Shown: positions 1,259-6,997 of the stretch, piece after piece
Layout: each line of letters begins with the position of its first letter
Numbering within the stretch: position 1 is the first letter of the stretch
Origin: Synergistaceae bacterium
GTDB lineage: Bacteria > Synergistota > Synergistia > Synergistales > Synergistaceae
Length of the DNA: 33,477 bases
Direction: 5' to 3'
NCBI GenBank assembly: GCA_030533085.1
Contig: JAUNJZ010000030.1
Span: 1-33,477, forward strand
The notes under the pieces: generated by a model
Seen by the model: only the letters and a program-made list of their open reading frames with translations
Told to the model about the DNA's origin: nothing
Database searches by the model: none
Program-made: the position numbers and the translations under genes

Positions 1259-1280
1259 ATATATAAAAGAGGTGAGGCTC

Positions 1281-2024
1281 GTGACTTTTGCATCCCGATT
1301 GGTGGATTTAAGAAAAGTTAAATGTAAGTATAATCAGGAGGAATTAGCTCGGCAGATAGAAATATCTGTTGATTCCATAAGGCGTTGGGAAAAAGGAAAC
1401 CAAGTCCCGCGCGCTGACGAATTACAAAAACTTGCTGTAGCCCTCAATACCTCCGTTGCCTACCTCATAGGCGAGACAGACGACCCAGCACGTCCAGTTG
1501 CCGGTGCAACCACGCCAAAAGTTCCAGACGGCGTTAGAGTTGATCTTTTGAAAAGTTCAGGCAGAATAATTCAAGTCCCTGTGTATGGGAAAGAACTTTC
1601 CGCCTGTTGCGGCGGCGGCTTCCCCGATTCTGATCAAATCTACTCGGATGCGGAAGAATTTATCGCAATACCTTCCGGTTTCTTAGGGCCGGTATCCAGC
1701 GACCCGAATTACCAGCCGTTTATAATCTACGCCGAAGGCGACAGCATGGTAAATGCCGGGATTCACGACGGGGCACAGGTGATCATAAACCCTTACGACG
1801 ACGTATTAGATGGAGATGCCGCGCTGGTTGAATTTGCGACAAATCCGGTTACAAAAAACATCGCTATAAAACGAGTCTATTGGCTTGACCGTTGCGCAGT
1901 AGAACTTCGTTCCGCCTGCGGCGACGGCTGGAAAAGGACTTTTACCGCCGATGATTTCGAGGAAAAGTCTGTCCGAATAATAGGAAAGGTAGAATGGGTC
2001 GGGAATAAGCCAAAAAGAGGGTAG
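1281..2024 (+). CDS. CI/LexA-like self-cleaving repressor (XRE HTH plus S24 peptidase)
   Basis: A 247-residue repressor. Residues about 4-64 form an XRE helix-turn-helix (NQEELARQIEISVDSIRRWE) and the C-terminal half is an S24/LexA-type peptidase with the catalytic serine in EGDSMVNAG (S155) and the lysine in IAIKRVY (K197). A linker Cys-Gly at 110-111 (ELSACCGGG) is the likely autocleavage bond, as in several phage CI proteins. The GTG at 1281 is chosen because AGAGGTGA is eight bases upstream; a GTG at 1272 lies within that ribosome site. Known members hold the lysogenic state and are cleaved when RecA is activated by DNA damage. Four dyads upstream are the presumed binding sites. Its product would repress the leftward small-gene operon, and the rightward genes behind it may be co-expressed in the lysogen. 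Confidence 0.9.
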   Translation: MTFASRLVDLRKVKCKYNQEELARQIEISVDSIRRWEKGNQVPRADELQKLAVALNTSVAYLIGETDDPARPVAGATTPKVPDGVRVDLLKSSGRIIQVPVYGKELSACCGGGFPDSDQIYSDAEEFIAIPSGFLGPVSSDPNYQPFIIYAEGDSMVNAGIHDGAQVIINPYDDVLDGDAALVEFATNPVTKNIAIKRVYWLDRCAVELRSACGDGWKRTFTADDFEEKSVRIIGKVEWVGNKPKRG

Positions 2025-2038
2025 CCTTAATTTTAAGG
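2025..2038. repeat. Palindrome directly after the repressor stop
   Basis: CCTTAATTTTAAGG is a 6-bp-arm palindrome beginning at the base after the TAG. It is too short and lacks a T-run, so it is not a convincing terminator; a binding site is possible. Confidence 0.3.
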
Positions 2039-2132
2039 ACATCTACACCTGTAGCAGAGACAAGCAAGAGGCTCACTAAATATCAGATTACACCATGCAG
2101 GGCAGGTTATATCTATATAAGGAGGGTAAACC

Positions 2133-3230
2133 ATGGAACTGATTGAAGCTATCAAAATTATTGCTCAGAGGAACAAGAATATGGGAGCAAACATCCAAAC
2201 AGAGGAAGCAGCAAAGACTGCTTTGGTTATGCCATTCATTCAAGCATTAGGCTATGATCTCTTTAATCCTGCCGAGGTTATTCCAGAGTTTGTCGCCGAT
2301 GTCGTAGACCGTAAGGGCGAAAAAATTGATTATGCTATTATGAAGGATAACGAACCCATTATGCTTATCGAATGCAAATGGAACGGAGGCGACCTTACGC
2401 AGGATCACAGGGCACAGCTTGCTAGATATTTCATGGTGGTACCAGCAAGAATAGGCATACTTACCAATGGTGTCGAATATGAATTTTATGCCGACCTTGA
2501 TGAATCAAAACAGTTGGACAACAAACCTTTTTTAAAGTTCAACATCAACGATGTAAATGAAGTCGCCATTCGTGAGCTCAAGAAGTACAGTAAAGGCGCA
2601 TTTCGTATTGACACTATCATCCCCGCAGCCGAAGAGTTGAAGTATACAAATGAGATGAAGAATTATCTGGCCGACATGCTTGCCGATCCCGACGAAGGCT
2701 TTACTCGTTTACTCACTAAGCAGGTATATGATAGAAAGTTAACGGCTCCTTCTTTAGAAAAATTCAAAGCTATTACAAAAAAAGCTCTAACTCAGTTTAT
2801 CAGTGATCGGGTAAGCGACCGGCTTGCTTCGGCGTTGCAGGAGGAAAAGGCATCCACTTCTGTCACATCATCTGGGCCAACACAGGAAACAAACATGCAT
2901 GAAAATGAAAAAGACAATATTGTGACCACTCAGGAAGAAATTGATGCTTTCAACGTGATACGAGCTATATTATGCCGCTGTGTACCAATAGAGAGAGTCG
3001 CAATGCGGGACACACAAAGCTATTGCGGTATTATTTTTGATGATAATAACCGGCTTCCCATTTGTAGACTGTATTTCAATTCAAAAGGCGCAAATATTGG
3101 AATCTTCGATGAAACGAAGAAGGAAACAAAATATCCTTTTGAAGCAGCAAGTGAGTTGTACAAGTATTCGGAACAGTTGTTAGCTGTGACGAAAAAGTAC
3201 TTGAATGCTAAAACGGAAAAAATCGGTTGA
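2133..3230 (+). CDS. HsdR-N-type PD-(D/E)XK protein, candidate defence or accessory gene
   Basis: A 365-residue protein. The N-terminal 150 residues look like the stand-alone HsdR N-terminal (type I restriction) nuclease fold: TALVMPFIQALGYD, then IDYAIM (D66), LIECKW (E80, K82) and QLARYF (Q95), a complete D...E-x-K catalytic pattern. Residues about 150-240 are helical, 245-270 a polar linker, and the C-terminal 100 residues a second small domain (YCGIIFDDNNRLPICRLYFN). There is no helicase or methylase partner, so it is not a classical type I enzyme. Similar proteins are common in prophages. AAGGAGGG six bases ahead of the ATG fixes the start. It lies between repressor and integrase, where exclusion and anti-phage genes tend to sit; that role is inference. 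Confidence 0.75.
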   Translation: MELIEAIKIIAQRNKNMGANIQTEEAAKTALVMPFIQALGYDLFNPAEVIPEFVADVVDRKGEKIDYAIMKDNEPIMLIECKWNGGDLTQDHRAQLARYFMVVPARIGILTNGVEYEFYADLDESKQLDNKPFLKFNINDVNEVAIRELKKYSKGAFRIDTIIPAAEELKYTNEMKNYLADMLADPDEGFTRLLTKQVYDRKLTAPSLEKFKAITKKALTQFISDRVSDRLASALQEEKASTSVTSSGPTQETNMHENEKDNIVTTQEEIDAFNVIRAILCRCVPIERVAMRDTQSYCGIIFDDNNRLPICRLYFNSKGANIGIFDETKKETKYPFEAASELYKYSEQLLAVTKKYLNAKTEKIG

Positions 3231-3271
3231 GATAAGACACTAAAAAAACAGAAACTTTGCCCGCAGGAGGA

Positions 3272-3445
3272 ATGCTGACAGAGACAGGCAAAATTAGAAA
3301 ACGCTTGCGGGAAACACAGAACTGGTTGCGGAAAGAAAGCGGAAAGAGAAGGATACGGAGAGTGAACGATTTGAACGGTAAAGATAATTATATATATCCG
3401 TCCATATTTGATTATGCGGATGACGGGATATCCATTTTCAAATAA
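3272..3445 (+). pseudogene. Short frame ending in a truncated HicB-like N-terminus
   Basis: The open frame from the ATG at 3272 gives 57 residues. Its end, from a GTG at 3362, reads VNDLNGKDNYIYPSIFDYADDGISIFK and then stops. The part YIYPSIFDYADDGIS closely resembles the start of HicB antitoxins (pattern Y-x-P-A-I-F-x-Y-D-E-D-G-I-S-V), but the following F-P-D-L-P-G-C and the DNA-binding domain are absent after the TAA at 3443. No HicA-like toxin is seen next to it. I read this as the remnant of a hicB gene, probably lost during rearrangement of the accessory stretch. The basic stretch before it (KIRKRLRETQNWLRKESG) is unexplained. Confidence 0.4.
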
Positions 3446-3457
3446 TGTCTCATTGTG
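3444..3457 (+). repeat. Left copy of a 14-bp direct repeat flanking the PDZ gene
   Basis: AATGTCTCATTGTG matches AATTTCTCATTGTG at 4279-4292 in 13 of 14 positions. The left copy begins at the stop codon of the HicB-like remnant; the right copy follows the PDZ gene stop. It may mark the ends of an acquired cassette, but a chance match of this length cannot be excluded. Confidence 0.35.
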
Positions 3458-3559
3458 CCTATTCTGAGATTACGAACGAAGGAAACGAGATGTAAATTCC
3501 GCCGGCGTGTTTTTAATGTAAAAGTGATACATTTAAAAAATTGAAAGAAGGTTATCGAG

Positions 3560-4261
3560 ATGAAAAGAACTATTCTATGCACAGCGTTTATCCTGCTTTT
3601 TGCATCATCAGCATTTGCAGCCAATATGTTTACGACAGTCATCAGAGATACGACGATCCCCGTTGTTCAGGAGACGATTATCAATGTCTTTTCTCCAAAG
3701 GGCTTCGCTGTTGCTGATGTCGGAAGCAATAAGGTCGCTCTTAATAAGAGTTTTGGAGATGGATTTTTTACAGCGATAAGAAACCGTACCGTGCTATTTA
3801 CACTGTTGCAGCAAAATGAAGATGTAAAGATGATGGTAAGCCAGAATGAACTTAACAGCGGCTGGATACAGTTGCAAAACAACATAGAACATTTGGTTCC
3901 CCTTATCAAGGAAGTCAGGCACGCCATTGACGGCACTCCGTCTGATCAGATCGTAAACGAAACCCCGGCTCCAGGAGGCGCTTCAACACCAGCGCCTAAA
4001 AAAATAGGACTGGTTCTTGTAAAAGCAGAGGGGCAGGAATATTACATTGCTGAGGTTGAAAAAGGTGGAGAGGCAGAGAAAGCCGGACTCGCCTCTGGTA
4101 TGGTCGTGTATGAAATCAATGGGAAAGTTCTCAATGATATGAAGAATCAAAGAGAAGTAGAGAATTATATTAACACAAAATGGAGTGCGGGTTCTTCATT
4201 GATTTTTCTATACGATAAGGATGGTACAAAAGAAATACTGACACTGAAAAAGACGAATTAA
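3560..4261 (+). CDS. Exported PDZ-domain protein of unknown role
   Basis: A 233-residue protein with a clear Sec signal peptide (MKRTILCTAFILLFASSAFA, predicted cleavage after residue 20), so it acts outside the cytoplasm. Residues about 25-125 form an unrecognised domain, 130-148 a Pro/Ala/Thr-rich linker (ETPAPGGASTPAPKK), and 150-230 a PDZ-like domain with the typical core VEKGGEAEKAGLASGMVVYEINGKVL. No protease triad is present, so this is an adaptor-like PDZ protein and not a DegP-type enzyme. AGAAGG eight bases ahead of the ATG supports the start. It is flanked by 14-bp direct repeats and sits between the broken hicB-like piece and the Abi-like gene. An exported protein in a lysogeny module could be a surface or superinfection-exclusion factor; this is inference. 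Confidence 0.75.
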   Translation: MKRTILCTAFILLFASSAFAANMFTTVIRDTTIPVVQETIINVFSPKGFAVADVGSNKVALNKSFGDGFFTAIRNRTVLFTLLQQNEDVKMMVSQNELNSGWIQLQNNIEHLVPLIKEVRHAIDGTPSDQIVNETPAPGGASTPAPKKIGLVLVKAEGQEYYIAEVEKGGEAEKAGLASGMVVYEINGKVLNDMKNQREVENYINTKWSAGSSLIFLYDKDGTKEILTLKKTN

Positions 4262-4278
4262 CACGGATAAGCTCATCG

Positions 4279-4292
4279 AATTTCTCATTGTG
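4279..4292 (+). repeat. Right copy of a 14-bp direct repeat flanking the PDZ gene
   Basis: AATTTCTCATTGTG, partner of the copy at 3444-3457 and 18 bases past the PDZ gene stop codon. Confidence 0.35.
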
Positions 4293-4341
4293 TGGGTACA
4301 TGCGGAGTAGGGGCAATTTTTTCTTGTGAAACCAGTCGGGC

Positions 4342-4377
4342 AACAAAACGCCCCCTCTCGACTTCAAGAGGGGGCGT
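4342..4377 (-). terminator. Intrinsic terminator, leftward
   Basis: A perfect 11-bp G+C-rich stem (4348-4358 with 4367-4377, arms ACGCCCCCTCT and AGAGGGGGCGT) with an 8-nt loop. On the minus strand it runs into TTTTGTTG; on the plus strand it is followed by ACTAGG, so it works leftward. Confidence 0.7.
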
Positions 4378-4433
4378 ACTAGGCGCAATTCACGGGCATT
4401 TTACCTCGCAAGGCAGCCATCCCCGGTGCTAAC
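4342..4433 (-). ncRNA. Candidate 92-nt small RNA with its own promoter and terminator
   Basis: A leftward promoter (4468-4440) should start transcription at about G4433, and an intrinsic terminator ends it near 4342. No leftward protein gene follows, so the unit would make a free RNA of about 92 nt. Inside it UGCCU-UGCG-AGGUA can form a short hairpin, and a 13-codon frame (MAALRGKMPVNCA) ends next to the terminator stem. It lies between, and antisense to any read-through from, the PDZ gene and the Abi-like gene. An antisense regulator of the Abi-like protein, or an RNA partner of it, is possible. No known RNA family recognised. Confidence 0.5.
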
Positions 4434-4439
4434 AGTTTT

Positions 4440-4468
4440 ATGATACAGAAATTTCAACTTATTGTCAA
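4440..4468 (-). promoter_or_regulatory. Leftward sigma70-type promoter of the candidate small RNA
   Basis: Minus strand -35 TTGACA (4468-4463), exact consensus; 17-base spacer; -10 TATCAT (4445-4440), five of six. It overlaps the leader of the Abi-like gene, so the two transcription units may interfere. Confidence 0.65.
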
Positions 4469-4481
4469 GGTGGGTAAAAAG

Positions 4482-5246
4482 ATGGCAGGTTTAAGCGCAA
4501 AACAACAGGTAAAGGTGTTGAATTGTATTTCAAATGAGCGGCTGGACAGATATAAATCGCTTATACCTTCCTCTGCGAACGGCCCCTTTGTCGCTCTCTA
4601 TTATACGATTCAATCTGCTTCTTCGATGTTTTATCCTACTATTCAGATACTTGAGGTCTGTCTGCGCAATAAAATACACGAAGCGCTGGTTGATTTTTTC
4701 ACAGGGAGAGCAAAGTCAATAACGTTGCCTGGAAAACCAACCGAATGGTATTTATGGCTTCCACGAAACATACATACACAAAAAGAGATAAAGAAAGTTT
4801 TAAGTAGAGCAAGTAAGGAAATACGTAATCGCCAGCTGATACCTGGCGACATAATAAGCAGATTGTCTTTCGGCTCGTGGTGTTCTATTTTAGAAGACCG
4901 ATCTGACAACAAAGACCGCCTGTTTTATTGGACAGGGGTGGAAAAATCTATATTCCCAAATACACAGATGAAGAAAAGGCAGATAATGGCTGAAATAAAA
5001 TGGGCCAATGCTTTGAGAAACAGGCTCTTCCATCATGAACCTATTTGGACAGGCTCTGGAGTAACATCTATAAAAGACGCTTATAAAACACTTAAAAATA
5101 AGCACAAGCGGCTTTTAAATATAATCAAAATGATGTCTCCAGAACTTTATAAGTCCTATGCCCTTGACTATATGTATAAAAGAGATTTTCGCGTTTCCAT
5201 CGATGGCGTTTTTCAGAAATGCAGAGAAATGGTGAATCAGAAATGA
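4482..5246 (+). CDS. Abi-family (AbiD/AbiF-like) HEPN-type protein
   Basis: A 254-residue protein resembling the Abi_2 group of abortive-infection proteins: an N-terminal helical region, then IQILEVCLRNKIHEAL (about residues 54-69), LSFGSWCSILED (128-139), and the signature ALRNRLFHHEPIW (177-189). R179 with H184/H185 fits the R-x4-6-H motif of HEPN ribonucleases, to which many Abi proteins belong. The ATG at 4482 has AAGGTGGG ahead of it; an ATG at 4440 has no ribosome site and lies within the opposing promoter. The stop overlaps the recombinase start as ATGA. Known relatives stop growth of the infected cell, often by RNA cleavage. A defence role here is inferred from family and position. 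Confidence 0.75.
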   Translation: MAGLSAKQQVKVLNCISNERLDRYKSLIPSSANGPFVALYYTIQSASSMFYPTIQILEVCLRNKIHEALVDFFTGRAKSITLPGKPTEWYLWLPRNIHTQKEIKKVLSRASKEIRNRQLIPGDIISRLSFGSWCSILEDRSDNKDRLFYWTGVEKSIFPNTQMKKRQIMAEIKWANALRNRLFHHEPIWTGSGVTSIKDAYKTLKNKHKRLLNIIKMMSPELYKSYALDYMYKRDFRVSIDGVFQKCREMVNQK

Positions 5247-6997
5247 TCCCCGCATACGCTTATGCTCGTTACAGTAGTGATAACCAACGCGAGGAAAGTA
5301 TTGAATCCCAGCTCGCGATGATCTCCGAGTTTGCGGCGCGCAACGGATATAAGATCTCTCAAACTTTTGTAGATGCGGCAATCTCAGGCACTAAAGTGTC
5401 TGGGCGCGAACAGTTTCAGAATATGTTATCTGAAGCAATTCGCAGTAAAACGGTGTCGGCTATCCTTGTACTGGATTTATCCCGTTATGCGCGCAACGCC
5501 GAAGAGGCGATTCACATTGAAAATCAATTGCTGCGGGCCAATATCGAGCTGGTGTCAATTTCTCAGCCAATGCGCACTCGGCTCGAAAACGGCAAGCTCA
5601 ATACCAGCGCGCTCACGTACAGACGCATGATGCACGTGATGAACGAGGCGCAAAGCTTACAGAACTCAGACACAACCTCAGCACATATGATGAGCCAGTC
5701 ACAGCGACCAAACGAGATGGGATATCATCCGCACATGGCTGGCAGTGCGCCATATGGTTATAAGCTAAGCGAACGAAAGCATTACAAGGATCACAGGTAC
5801 CTAGAGGTCAACGAAGACGAAGCTCCAGCGGTTCGTCTTGCATGGCAATGGTGCAGCGAGGGGATCGGGTACCGTGAAATCGCGAAGCGCCTCGGAGAGC
5901 TTGGTTATCGTTCCAGACGCGGCGCTATCCTCTCGCATACCAGCGTATACGAGATGCTGCACAACTCGACATACGCTGGCATATACAGCTATGGAAAAGT
6001 ACGCTATAACCGCCTCACCACAGGGGTGCCTGAAGAAAATCCCGACGCGGTGGTAGTGCCCGGCGGTTGCCCGGCGATAATCCCCATGGCGCTCTATGAA
6101 CAAGTTAGCACTCTGCTTAGTGGACGAAAATACGGGCCGAGGACTTCACGGGGAACGCTATACATTCTTTCCGGCCTTGTGCGTTGCAAGTATTGCGGCT
6201 CGCCAATGTGCGGCGATTCTGGCGGGAAGAACAGGGAAACAACCTATCGGTGTAACGGTAAAGAATGCGATCATCGGCAATGGAGAACCAGCCGACCGCT
6301 GTTAGAGAGAGCCGTGCTCAGGGCGTTGATGGATACTTTTATAATTGGCGCACGCTCTGATGATATCGCCGCTGCGTTGAATGAACTTGACCGACTCGAA
6401 GGGCAAAACATAGAAGGGCAGATACGACGACTTCGCAACGAAATCACAGCTGCGGAACGTAAAATACTGTCGCTGATGGATCTGATGTCCGATCTTGAGC
6501 TGAGGGATATCACAAAGAAAAAAATATTAGAGCTACAGAGCGGAGCAAATGTGCAGAAGTGCAAATTGCGTGAGTTTGAAGAATTGCAGCGCAAAAAAAA
6601 CATCAATAACGACACTCGGCATGTATTTGCAGTGCTTTGTACAGCCCAAAAAGCTTATGCGGAATGGGATGAACCAAAACTAAAGACAATAGCTAATATA
6701 TTCATAGAGAACGTGGAGGTTGCGCACCTTGGCGATATAAAAATCACGTGGTCAGACGGTACGAACCTGTTTTTATCACCCTCGCCGCCTGATCCTAGTA
6801 ATCCCAAAAGAAGAGCTTTAAAGGCGTCACGAAATACGGGTTATTGTTCAATGACCCTAGGGACTGCCAATAAAGTGAAGAGCGGCGATATCCTTTCGGA
6901 TATCGCCGCTCTTCATATAAGCTGGCGTCGCGCTTCGCCGCGCCGTGGATGTTGGCAGAGCTGTACTTCAAGAATGGCGGAAGGAATATTTTTTTGA
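5243..6997 (+). CDS. Large serine recombinase (integrase)
   Basis: A 584-residue large serine recombinase. The catalytic domain opens AYAYARYSSDNQREESIESQ with the nucleophile at S11 or S12, followed by LDLSRYARNAEE with the active-site arginines. The recombinase domain (about 155-300, GSAPYGYKL... YAGIYSYGK) is followed by a zinc ribbon (C315, C318, C337, C342) and a coiled coil (about 380-450). The ATG at 5243 overlaps the stop of the Abi-like gene; an earlier ATG at 5219 lies inside that gene. Family members usually end soon after a VEV...IKITW-type strand, found here near residues 490-503. The further 80 residues, including one end of an 18-bp hairpin, look unlike the family and may be read from DNA beyond the attachment site. 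It would integrate and excise the element. Confidence 0.92.
   Translation: MIPAYAYARYSSDNQREESIESQLAMISEFAARNGYKISQTFVDAAISGTKVSGREQFQNMLSEAIRSKTVSAILVLDLSRYARNAEEAIHIENQLLRANIELVSISQPMRTRLENGKLNTSALTYRRMMHVMNEAQSLQNSDTTSAHMMSQSQRPNEMGYHPHMAGSAPYGYKLSERKHYKDHRYLEVNEDEAPAVRLAWQWCSEGIGYREIAKRLGELGYRSRRGAILSHTSVYEMLHNSTYAGIYSYGKVRYNRLTTGVPEENPDAVVVPGGCPAIIPMALYEQVSTLLSGRKYGPRTSRGTLYILSGLVRCKYCGSPMCGDSGGKNRETTYRCNGKECDHRQWRTSRPLLERAVLRALMDTFIIGARSDDIAAALNELDRLEGQNIEGQIRRLRNEITAAERKILSLMDLMSDLELRDITKKKILELQSGANVQKCKLREFEELQRKKNINNDTRHVFAVLCTAQKAYAEWDEPKLKTIANIFIENVEVAHLGDIKITWSDGTNLFLSPSPPDPSNPKRRALKASRNTGYCSMTLGTANKVKSGDILSDIAALHISWRRASPRRGCWQSCTSRMAEGIFF
6876..6915 (-). terminator. 18-bp perfect hairpin, candidate terminator for the xdh arm or boundary element
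   Basis: Arms 6876-6893 and 6898-6915 (TGAAGAGCGGCGATATCC and its complement) pair perfectly around a 4-nt loop. On the minus strand the stem is followed by CTTTATT, a weak U-run, 112 nt beyond the xdh stop. It lies inside the 3' end of the recombinase frame, where it encodes part of the odd tail. A terminator for xdh or a structural mark near the attachment junction are both possible. Confidence 0.45.

Follow-up and report, generated by a model that had tools for sequence, protein, structure and literature searches.

A contig of 33,477 nt from a Synergistaceae bacterium (hereafter the window, meaning the whole stretch of DNA that was analysed) carries a gene for an Abi/HEPN protein and, on the opposite strand directly upstream, a promoter followed closely by a terminator-like hairpin. 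This arrangement raises the question of whether the unit is a small-RNA gene that belongs to the protein gene and, if so, what the RNA does. An initial annotation, made from sequence alone, had read it as an independent RNA unit transcribed divergently from the Abi/HEPN gene. This reading is supported by conservation across the protein family, with expression remaining inferred, and we consider the divergent RNA likely to be a cognate antitoxin that cages the adjacent PD-T4-5-type HEPN protein. Transcription and binding are both inferred, without RNA-seq or binding data.

The protein was classified by its best PADLOC match, the PD-T4-5 model (E 3.4e-23), which identifies it as a PD-T4-5-type protein and a distant relative of AbiF/AbiD; its RNase activity, toxicity, and role in phage defence are inferred. 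It scores 19 bits against Pfam Abi_2 (PF07751), under the cut-off of 25.6, and 13 of 17 relatives match Abi_2. The AlphaFold model is all helical (mean pLDDT 86.6), and R179, N180, and H184 are invariant across the PD-T4-5 family. Single-sequence protein scans for close relatives found none, and Foldseek searches of PDB and BFVD with the AlphaFold model gave no meaningful match (TM ~0.2), so structural kinship to PbAbiF is not shown. The gene, abi, had been annotated as starting at 4440, which is probably wrong. Because a good Shine-Dalgarno sequence (AAGGTGG, 4467-4473) is present, ATG 4482 is the likely start, and the RNA promoter is then intergenic, with its -35 element overlapping the abi Shine-Dalgarno sequence. 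To the left of abi lie genes for a CI-like repressor (1272-2024) and a member of a phage nuclease family (2133-3230; phrog_4225, E 2e-115). The gene order from 1272 to 6997 is CI-like repressor, phrog_4225 nuclease, PDZ protein, RNA unit, PD-T4-5 gene, and large serine integrase, and this region reads as the left arm of a prophage-like element whose other end is off the contig. Host molybdenum hydroxylase genes are found from 7028, where the element gives way to host genes.

The features of the unit and its surroundings are collected in Table 1. Direct reading and a scan both confirmed the annotated TTGACA and TATCAT boxes, their 17-nt spacer, the perfect 11-bp stem, and the U-run, all on the minus strand. 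The stem had been placed 92 nt downstream, which is true only of its end; it begins ~62 nt and ends ~92 nt past the -10 element. With 11 of 12 matches, the promoter is the top-scoring one between 3000 and 6500. The terminator has the layout ACGCCCCCTCT-TGAAGTCG-AGAGGGGGCGT, with TTTTG directly after the 3' arm, and its 11 perfect pairs become 13 if two extra pairs are counted. The predicted RNA (4433-4340) has a folding energy of -41.9 kcal/mol (z -3.2), equalled by 1 of 200 shuffles, and much of this stability is owed to the terminator. If a unit is defined as a promoter with at least 10 of 12 matches and a strong terminator within 160 nt downstream, the 33-kb window contains one, the RNA unit at 4468-4344, and 60 simulated windows contain none. 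A DNA similarity search found the unit as a single copy in its own genome; in 60 relatives' genomes no DNA match of its length was found, only weak hairpin matches. An Rfam scan of the window unit and of the relatives scanned yielded no credible match, RF03085 included.

Table 1. Features of the RNA unit, the adjacent gene, and the flanking integrase, in window coordinates.
Feature	Position	Strand	Remarks
-35 element TTGACA	4468-4463	minus	direct reading and scan
-10 element TATCAT	4445-4440	minus	17-nt spacer from -35; direct reading and scan
Intrinsic terminator hairpin ACGCCCCCTCT-tgaagtcg-AGAGGGGGCGT	4377-4348	minus	U-run 4347-4344; reading and scan
Predicted small RNA, ~90 nt	4340..4433	minus	start ~4433, 3' end ~4344-4340; inferred from promoter and terminator, no transcript data
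Structured domain homologous to L014 RNA	4382..4433	minus	R2 match, 65 bits; three compensatory pairs vs L014
Outer stem CGGG/CCCG	4425-4422 with 4396-4393	minus	followed by G.G mismatch
A-U pairs of the domain	4420-4419 with 4399-4398	minus	
3-nt bulge GGC opposite AA	4418-4416	minus	
Inner stem UGCCU/AGGUA	4415-4411 with 4406-4402	minus	
PD-T4-5-type Abi_2/HEPN putative toxin gene (abi)	4482..5246	plus	254 aa from ATG 4482, 268 aa if from ATG 4440
Probable abi Shine-Dalgarno AAGGTGG	4467..4473	plus	overlaps RNA -35; read from sequence
HEPN motif RNRLFH (R-x4-H active site; R179 N180 R181 ... H184)	5016..5033	plus	motif invariant in family
Large serine recombinase (integrase)	5219..6997	plus	overlaps abi 3' end; Pfam Resolvase/Recombinase, phrog_95 9e-82

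Conservation of the unit was assessed in PD-T4-5 relatives drawn from plasmids, phages, GTDB genomes, and IMG/VR, with the start codons of the homologous genes assigned by rule. After near-identical upstream regions and genes with less than 120 nt of free sequence upstream had been removed, a hairpin resembling an intrinsic terminator was identified on the divergent strand of 40 of 80 PD-T4-5 relatives; among control genes from these loci the count was 3 of 164 (Fisher p = 5e-20). These terminators sit 40-270 nt upstream. On the same strand, terminator-like hairpins were found for 10 of the 80 relatives and 5 of the 164 controls. Once hand-listed domains and model matches were added, a divergent unit was present in 81 of 110 loci; the other 29 have none by automatic criteria, and several of them show one by eye. 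The divergent-strand promoter score averages 8.5 of 12, against 6.6 in shuffled sequence and 6.9 on the other strand (p = 4e-10 and 4e-7), and the distance from the -10 element to the RNA domain is 12-13 nt in most compact-class loci and 11 nt in the window. The motif CCTCT occurs within the first 150 nt of the divergent strand in 53 of 110 loci, versus 10 of 110 on the other strand and 18 in shuffles. The window itself meets the criterion for the divergent group, namely a promoter, a structured domain, and a terminator within 300 nt of the toxin start, and a viral scan with the Synergistota alignment matched two distant loci. The promoter-RNA-terminator unit and its divergent linkage to the PD-T4-5 gene are thus conserved across the family, transcription being inferred.

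Two further arrangements were noted among these loci. Seven of them (L031, L068, L108, L113, L116, L134, and L144) carry another type of divergent RNA, with a terminator like CCTCGGACAGGC...GCCCCTCCGAGG-TTTCGCTTTTT that escaped the automatic terminator rule. In tiny RNAI-bearing plasmids of E. coli and Salmonella (L021; CP055629.1, 3.1 kb), the PD-T4-5 gene takes up a quarter of the length and has a bidirectional terminator-like hairpin upstream; this locus could be an addiction module.

The RNAs share an architecture of an outer stem, a short loop, two or three pairs, a 5' bulge opposite 1-3 nt, an inner stem, and a loop, with the bulge reading CTC in class 1 and GGC in the window RNA and its homolog L014. 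Class 1 comprises 19 sequences from Actinomycetota, Alphaproteobacteria, a cyanobacterium, and others. In its alignment 92% of cells are paired, compared with 25-49% in slid controls, 9 of 15 pairs show changes on both sides, and double-changed cells number 28 against 9.6+-2.5. Class 2 (12 sequences from Bacteroidota, Chlorobiota, and some Proteobacteria) is 95% paired, with 18 double-changed cells against 5.6+-2.5. A covarying fold is therefore conserved in two classes of the family's RNAs. The domains of both classes were seeded by eye; the resulting bias of choice is offset by the matches of R1, a covariance model of class 1, beyond its training set and by a whole-genome test. R1 finds the RNA just 5' of and opposite the Abi gene, also at loci outside the training set. 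Of the 25 matches that it gave in 21 whole genomes (~109 Mb), 23 adjoin an Abi ORF on the opposite strand, one is at a contig edge, and one is 2.7 kb from an Abi ORF. E-values of such small models are rough.

Some class-1 RNAs occur in unusual settings. Extra copies at L079:227-269 and L074:5993-6035 are not adjoined by an intact Abi ORF, an RNA-Abi pair being ~2.7-3 kb away; they may be solitary RNA antitoxins. The Acidimicrobiales genome G205 (L066, L164, L173, L175) contains three RNA-Abi pairs, two sharing one contig, which hints that several pairs might coexist without mutual interference.

These data bear on a purely cis-regulatory explanation, according to which the divergent promoter and terminator tune abi transcription by promoter occlusion or insulation and the RNA has no function. 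The overlap of the -35 element with the abi Shine-Dalgarno sequence is in its favour, as the promoter could interfere with abi. Against it, compensatory changes fall within the transcribed RNA in every class tested, and we regard this explanation as very unlikely.

The window RNA was tried as a member of class 1 and rejected: a search of the window with R1 gave no match, and the RNA was assigned to a class of its own with L014, which consists of these two sequences only. L014, its one close homolog, is the divergent RNA that accompanies a PD-T4-5 gene in a second genome from the same order. When the two are compared (GTTAGCACCGGGGATGGCTGCCT-TGCG-AGGTAAAATGCCCG in the window against GTGAGCTTCGGGGTTGGCTGCTCATC-TGAGAG-GATGAGTAAAAAGCCCG in L014), all 11 pairs are kept, 3 of them by changes on both sides, and slid controls show none; a shuffle test (55/500) is weak with only two sequences. 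When 188 genomes of the phylum were searched with R2, a model built from this pair, only the window and L014 sites matched. A divergent hairpin built along similar lines, with a terminator after it, is also present in two more relatives from the phylum, L016 and L019.

The same homolog bears on the most deflationary explanation, that promoter and terminator coincide by chance or belong to an orphan leader encoding a 13-codon peptide. A minus-strand frame of that length, ATG...TAG, does exist between promoter and stem, as the initial annotation had pointed out. The frame is not conserved: in L014, the only close homolog, TTG stands in place of its ATG and a stop codon follows after 7 codons. 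This weakens the proposal, and the leader peptide was rejected. Chance is countered by the absence of such units from the 60 simulated windows and by the family-wide conservation. This explanation can be all but ruled out.

We therefore return to an RNA antitoxin. The RNA is probably an antidote that keeps the toxin quiet, because a similar folded RNA is found at the same place in relatives of the toxin across many phyla. In the mechanism we propose, a small-RNA gene would be transcribed away from the toxin gene, and in the resting lysogen its strong divergent promoter would yield an excess of RNA that binds the HEPN dimer and blocks the RNase site. If a phage infects or the element is lost, supply of the RNA would fail or the RNA would be displaced, and the freed HEPN RNase would arrest growth or phage replication. 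Computation has shown the promoter-RNA-terminator unit, its family-wide divergent linkage, the covarying fold, and the distant homology to AbiF. That the protein is a toxic RNase, that the RNA binds and neutralises it, and what triggers its release are inferred from AbiF.

One rival is an antisense regulator resembling those of type I systems, in which the RNA would pair with abi mRNA produced by read-through, whether from the PDZ gene or from some other promoter upstream, and thereby cut its translation or stability. Any abi transcript that begins to the left of the RNA (4433-4340) would be complementary to it over its full length, and no good plus-strand promoter was found by scanning between PDZ and abi (plus-strand best 7/12). 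The annotated antisense relation to a transcript from the PDZ gene accordingly holds only if abi mRNA starts left of 4433. However, the RNA overlaps neither the abi coding sequence nor its Shine-Dalgarno sequence, upstream genes and read-through differ among loci, and pure antisense action needs none of the covarying fold, fixed spacing from the -10 element to the domain, and conserved unpaired bases that are observed. The fold, the spacing, and the conserved bulge are better suited to a protein-bound antitoxin than to a pure antisense RNA. We consider this rival unlikely; antisense action on a read-through abi transcript is possible as an additional layer.

Less likely still is a sensor or effector RNA, which would serve the HEPN protein as an activating or phage-sensing cofactor instead of an inhibitor, or as both, inhibiting until a phage trigger arrives. 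Reviews trace RNA-guided Cas13 to the AbiF lineage (PMC12737573), and the strong divergence of the RNA between subgroups is as expected of a sensing part. On the other hand, no spacer-like variable segment was noticed within classes, and the known AbiF RNAs are inhibitors (PMC12373285).

The antitoxin reading can be extended to the family. On balance, with modest confidence, we favour the bolder view that PD-T4-5 defence proteins are two-part RNA-protein systems, their second component being a divergent structured antitoxin RNA that evolves fast. On this view, RNA-caged HEPN toxins would include a large branch reaching from Synergistota to Actinomycetota, Bacteroidota, Cyanobacteria, and Pseudomonadota; it would have escaped existing RNA libraries, and its gene orientation would set it apart from AbiF. 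Genes of the PD-T4-5 type, which annotation treats as single-gene defence, are widespread on prophages and on plasmids, among them plasmids of Klebsiella and Acinetobacter. Should every one of them be paired with an RNA antitoxin, tolerance of a toxic HEPN RNase would be explained, phage sensing would gain a testable activation switch, the divergent RNA would have to be included when PD-T4-5 is cloned, and a separate RNA-caged HEPN branch would be added to the lineage thought to have given Cas13. No description of a divergent PD-T4-5 RNA was found in the literature searched; the AbiF/Cas13 work of Zilberzwige-Tal et al. was not covered, so an earlier description is not fully excluded.

Among known systems, the closest comparison is AbiF of C. 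difficile, which is toxic and is neutralised by the protein-binding RNA RCd22; this RNA lies upstream of abiF on the same strand, has its own promoter and terminator, and contains Rfam RF03085 (PMC12373285). The AbiF/AbiD group also includes PbAbiF with its RNA AbiFr (PDB 8VZ6). In phage phiC2, used as a positive control, RF03085 was located at L177:7066-7101 on the same strand as the AbiF gene. The AbiF/AbiD systems and the window have in common a HEPN protein related to the Abi_2 superfamily (a sub-threshold match in the window), next to which lies a short structured RNA, predicted in the window, equipped with a sigma-70 promoter and a terminator of its own, as well as a location on mobile elements. 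RF03085 resembles class 1 in its outer stem and GC-CUCU-like bulge (P1-A-AGC-CUCU... vs P1-nn-nGC-CUCU...), and the RF03085 model matched neither the window unit nor the relatives' RNAs scanned. One difference lies in orientation: the AbiF/AbiD RNA is upstream on the same strand, whereas that of the window and the PD-T4-5 family is divergent. In 8 AbiD/F loci from the window's phylum and phiC2, same-strand hairpins with U-runs were found in 7 and divergent ones in none. The published AbiF RNA antitoxins thus support the antitoxin suggestion of the initial annotation, differing in being same-strand, and antitoxin activity in the window is inferred.

At the protein level, BLAST detected no similarity between PD-T4-5-type proteins and phiC2 AbiF. 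Comparison of PD-T4-5 and AbiF profiles with hhalign gave 95.6% over 49 columns, identifying the PD-T4-5 proteins as remote AbiF relatives. PbAbiF (8VZ6) was found neither by the PD-T4-5 family profile search nor by Foldseek, so transfer from AbiF rests on remote homology; phiC2 AbiF, unlike PD-T4-5 proteins, does find 8VZ6. A second Abi_2 protein in the window's genome, L209 (G000:C2:640-1257), is of the AbiD/F type (PADLOC AbiD, 1e-26), with no RF03085 RNA detected; it and phiC2 AbiF match PADLOC AbiD, not PD-T4-5. At other AbiD/F loci of the phylum (L205, L206, L207, L208, L211), RF03085 missed leader hairpins on the same strand, several of which contain CCTCT-like motifs and U-runs, and the RF03085 family appears to be under-modelled.

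A functional screen had recovered PD-T4-5 itself as a single gene, carried by a plasmid, that acts abortively and resembles a toxin-antitoxin system; it was described there as a 'distant relative of AbiF/D' (Vassallo et al. 2022, PMC9519451). The passages on PD-T4-5 in the few papers found, including PMC9519451, mention no RNA component. The window protein belongs to the same family (PADLOC E 3e-23), and the difference is that a divergent RNA is here a regular neighbour of the family. By analogy, type III toxin-antitoxin systems (ToxIN and kin) are similar in having an RNA antitoxin that acts on an RNase toxin. They differ in that ToxI, a pseudoknot array of tandem repeats, is co-transcribed with a toxin that is not a HEPN protein, whereas the window unit has a single domain without repeats, on the strand opposite a HEPN toxin. 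Type I systems likewise place a small RNA gene next to the toxin gene on the opposite strand, but their RNAs pair with the mRNA of toxins that are small membrane peptides, whereas the window RNA has a fold supported by covariation and is located beyond the coding region.
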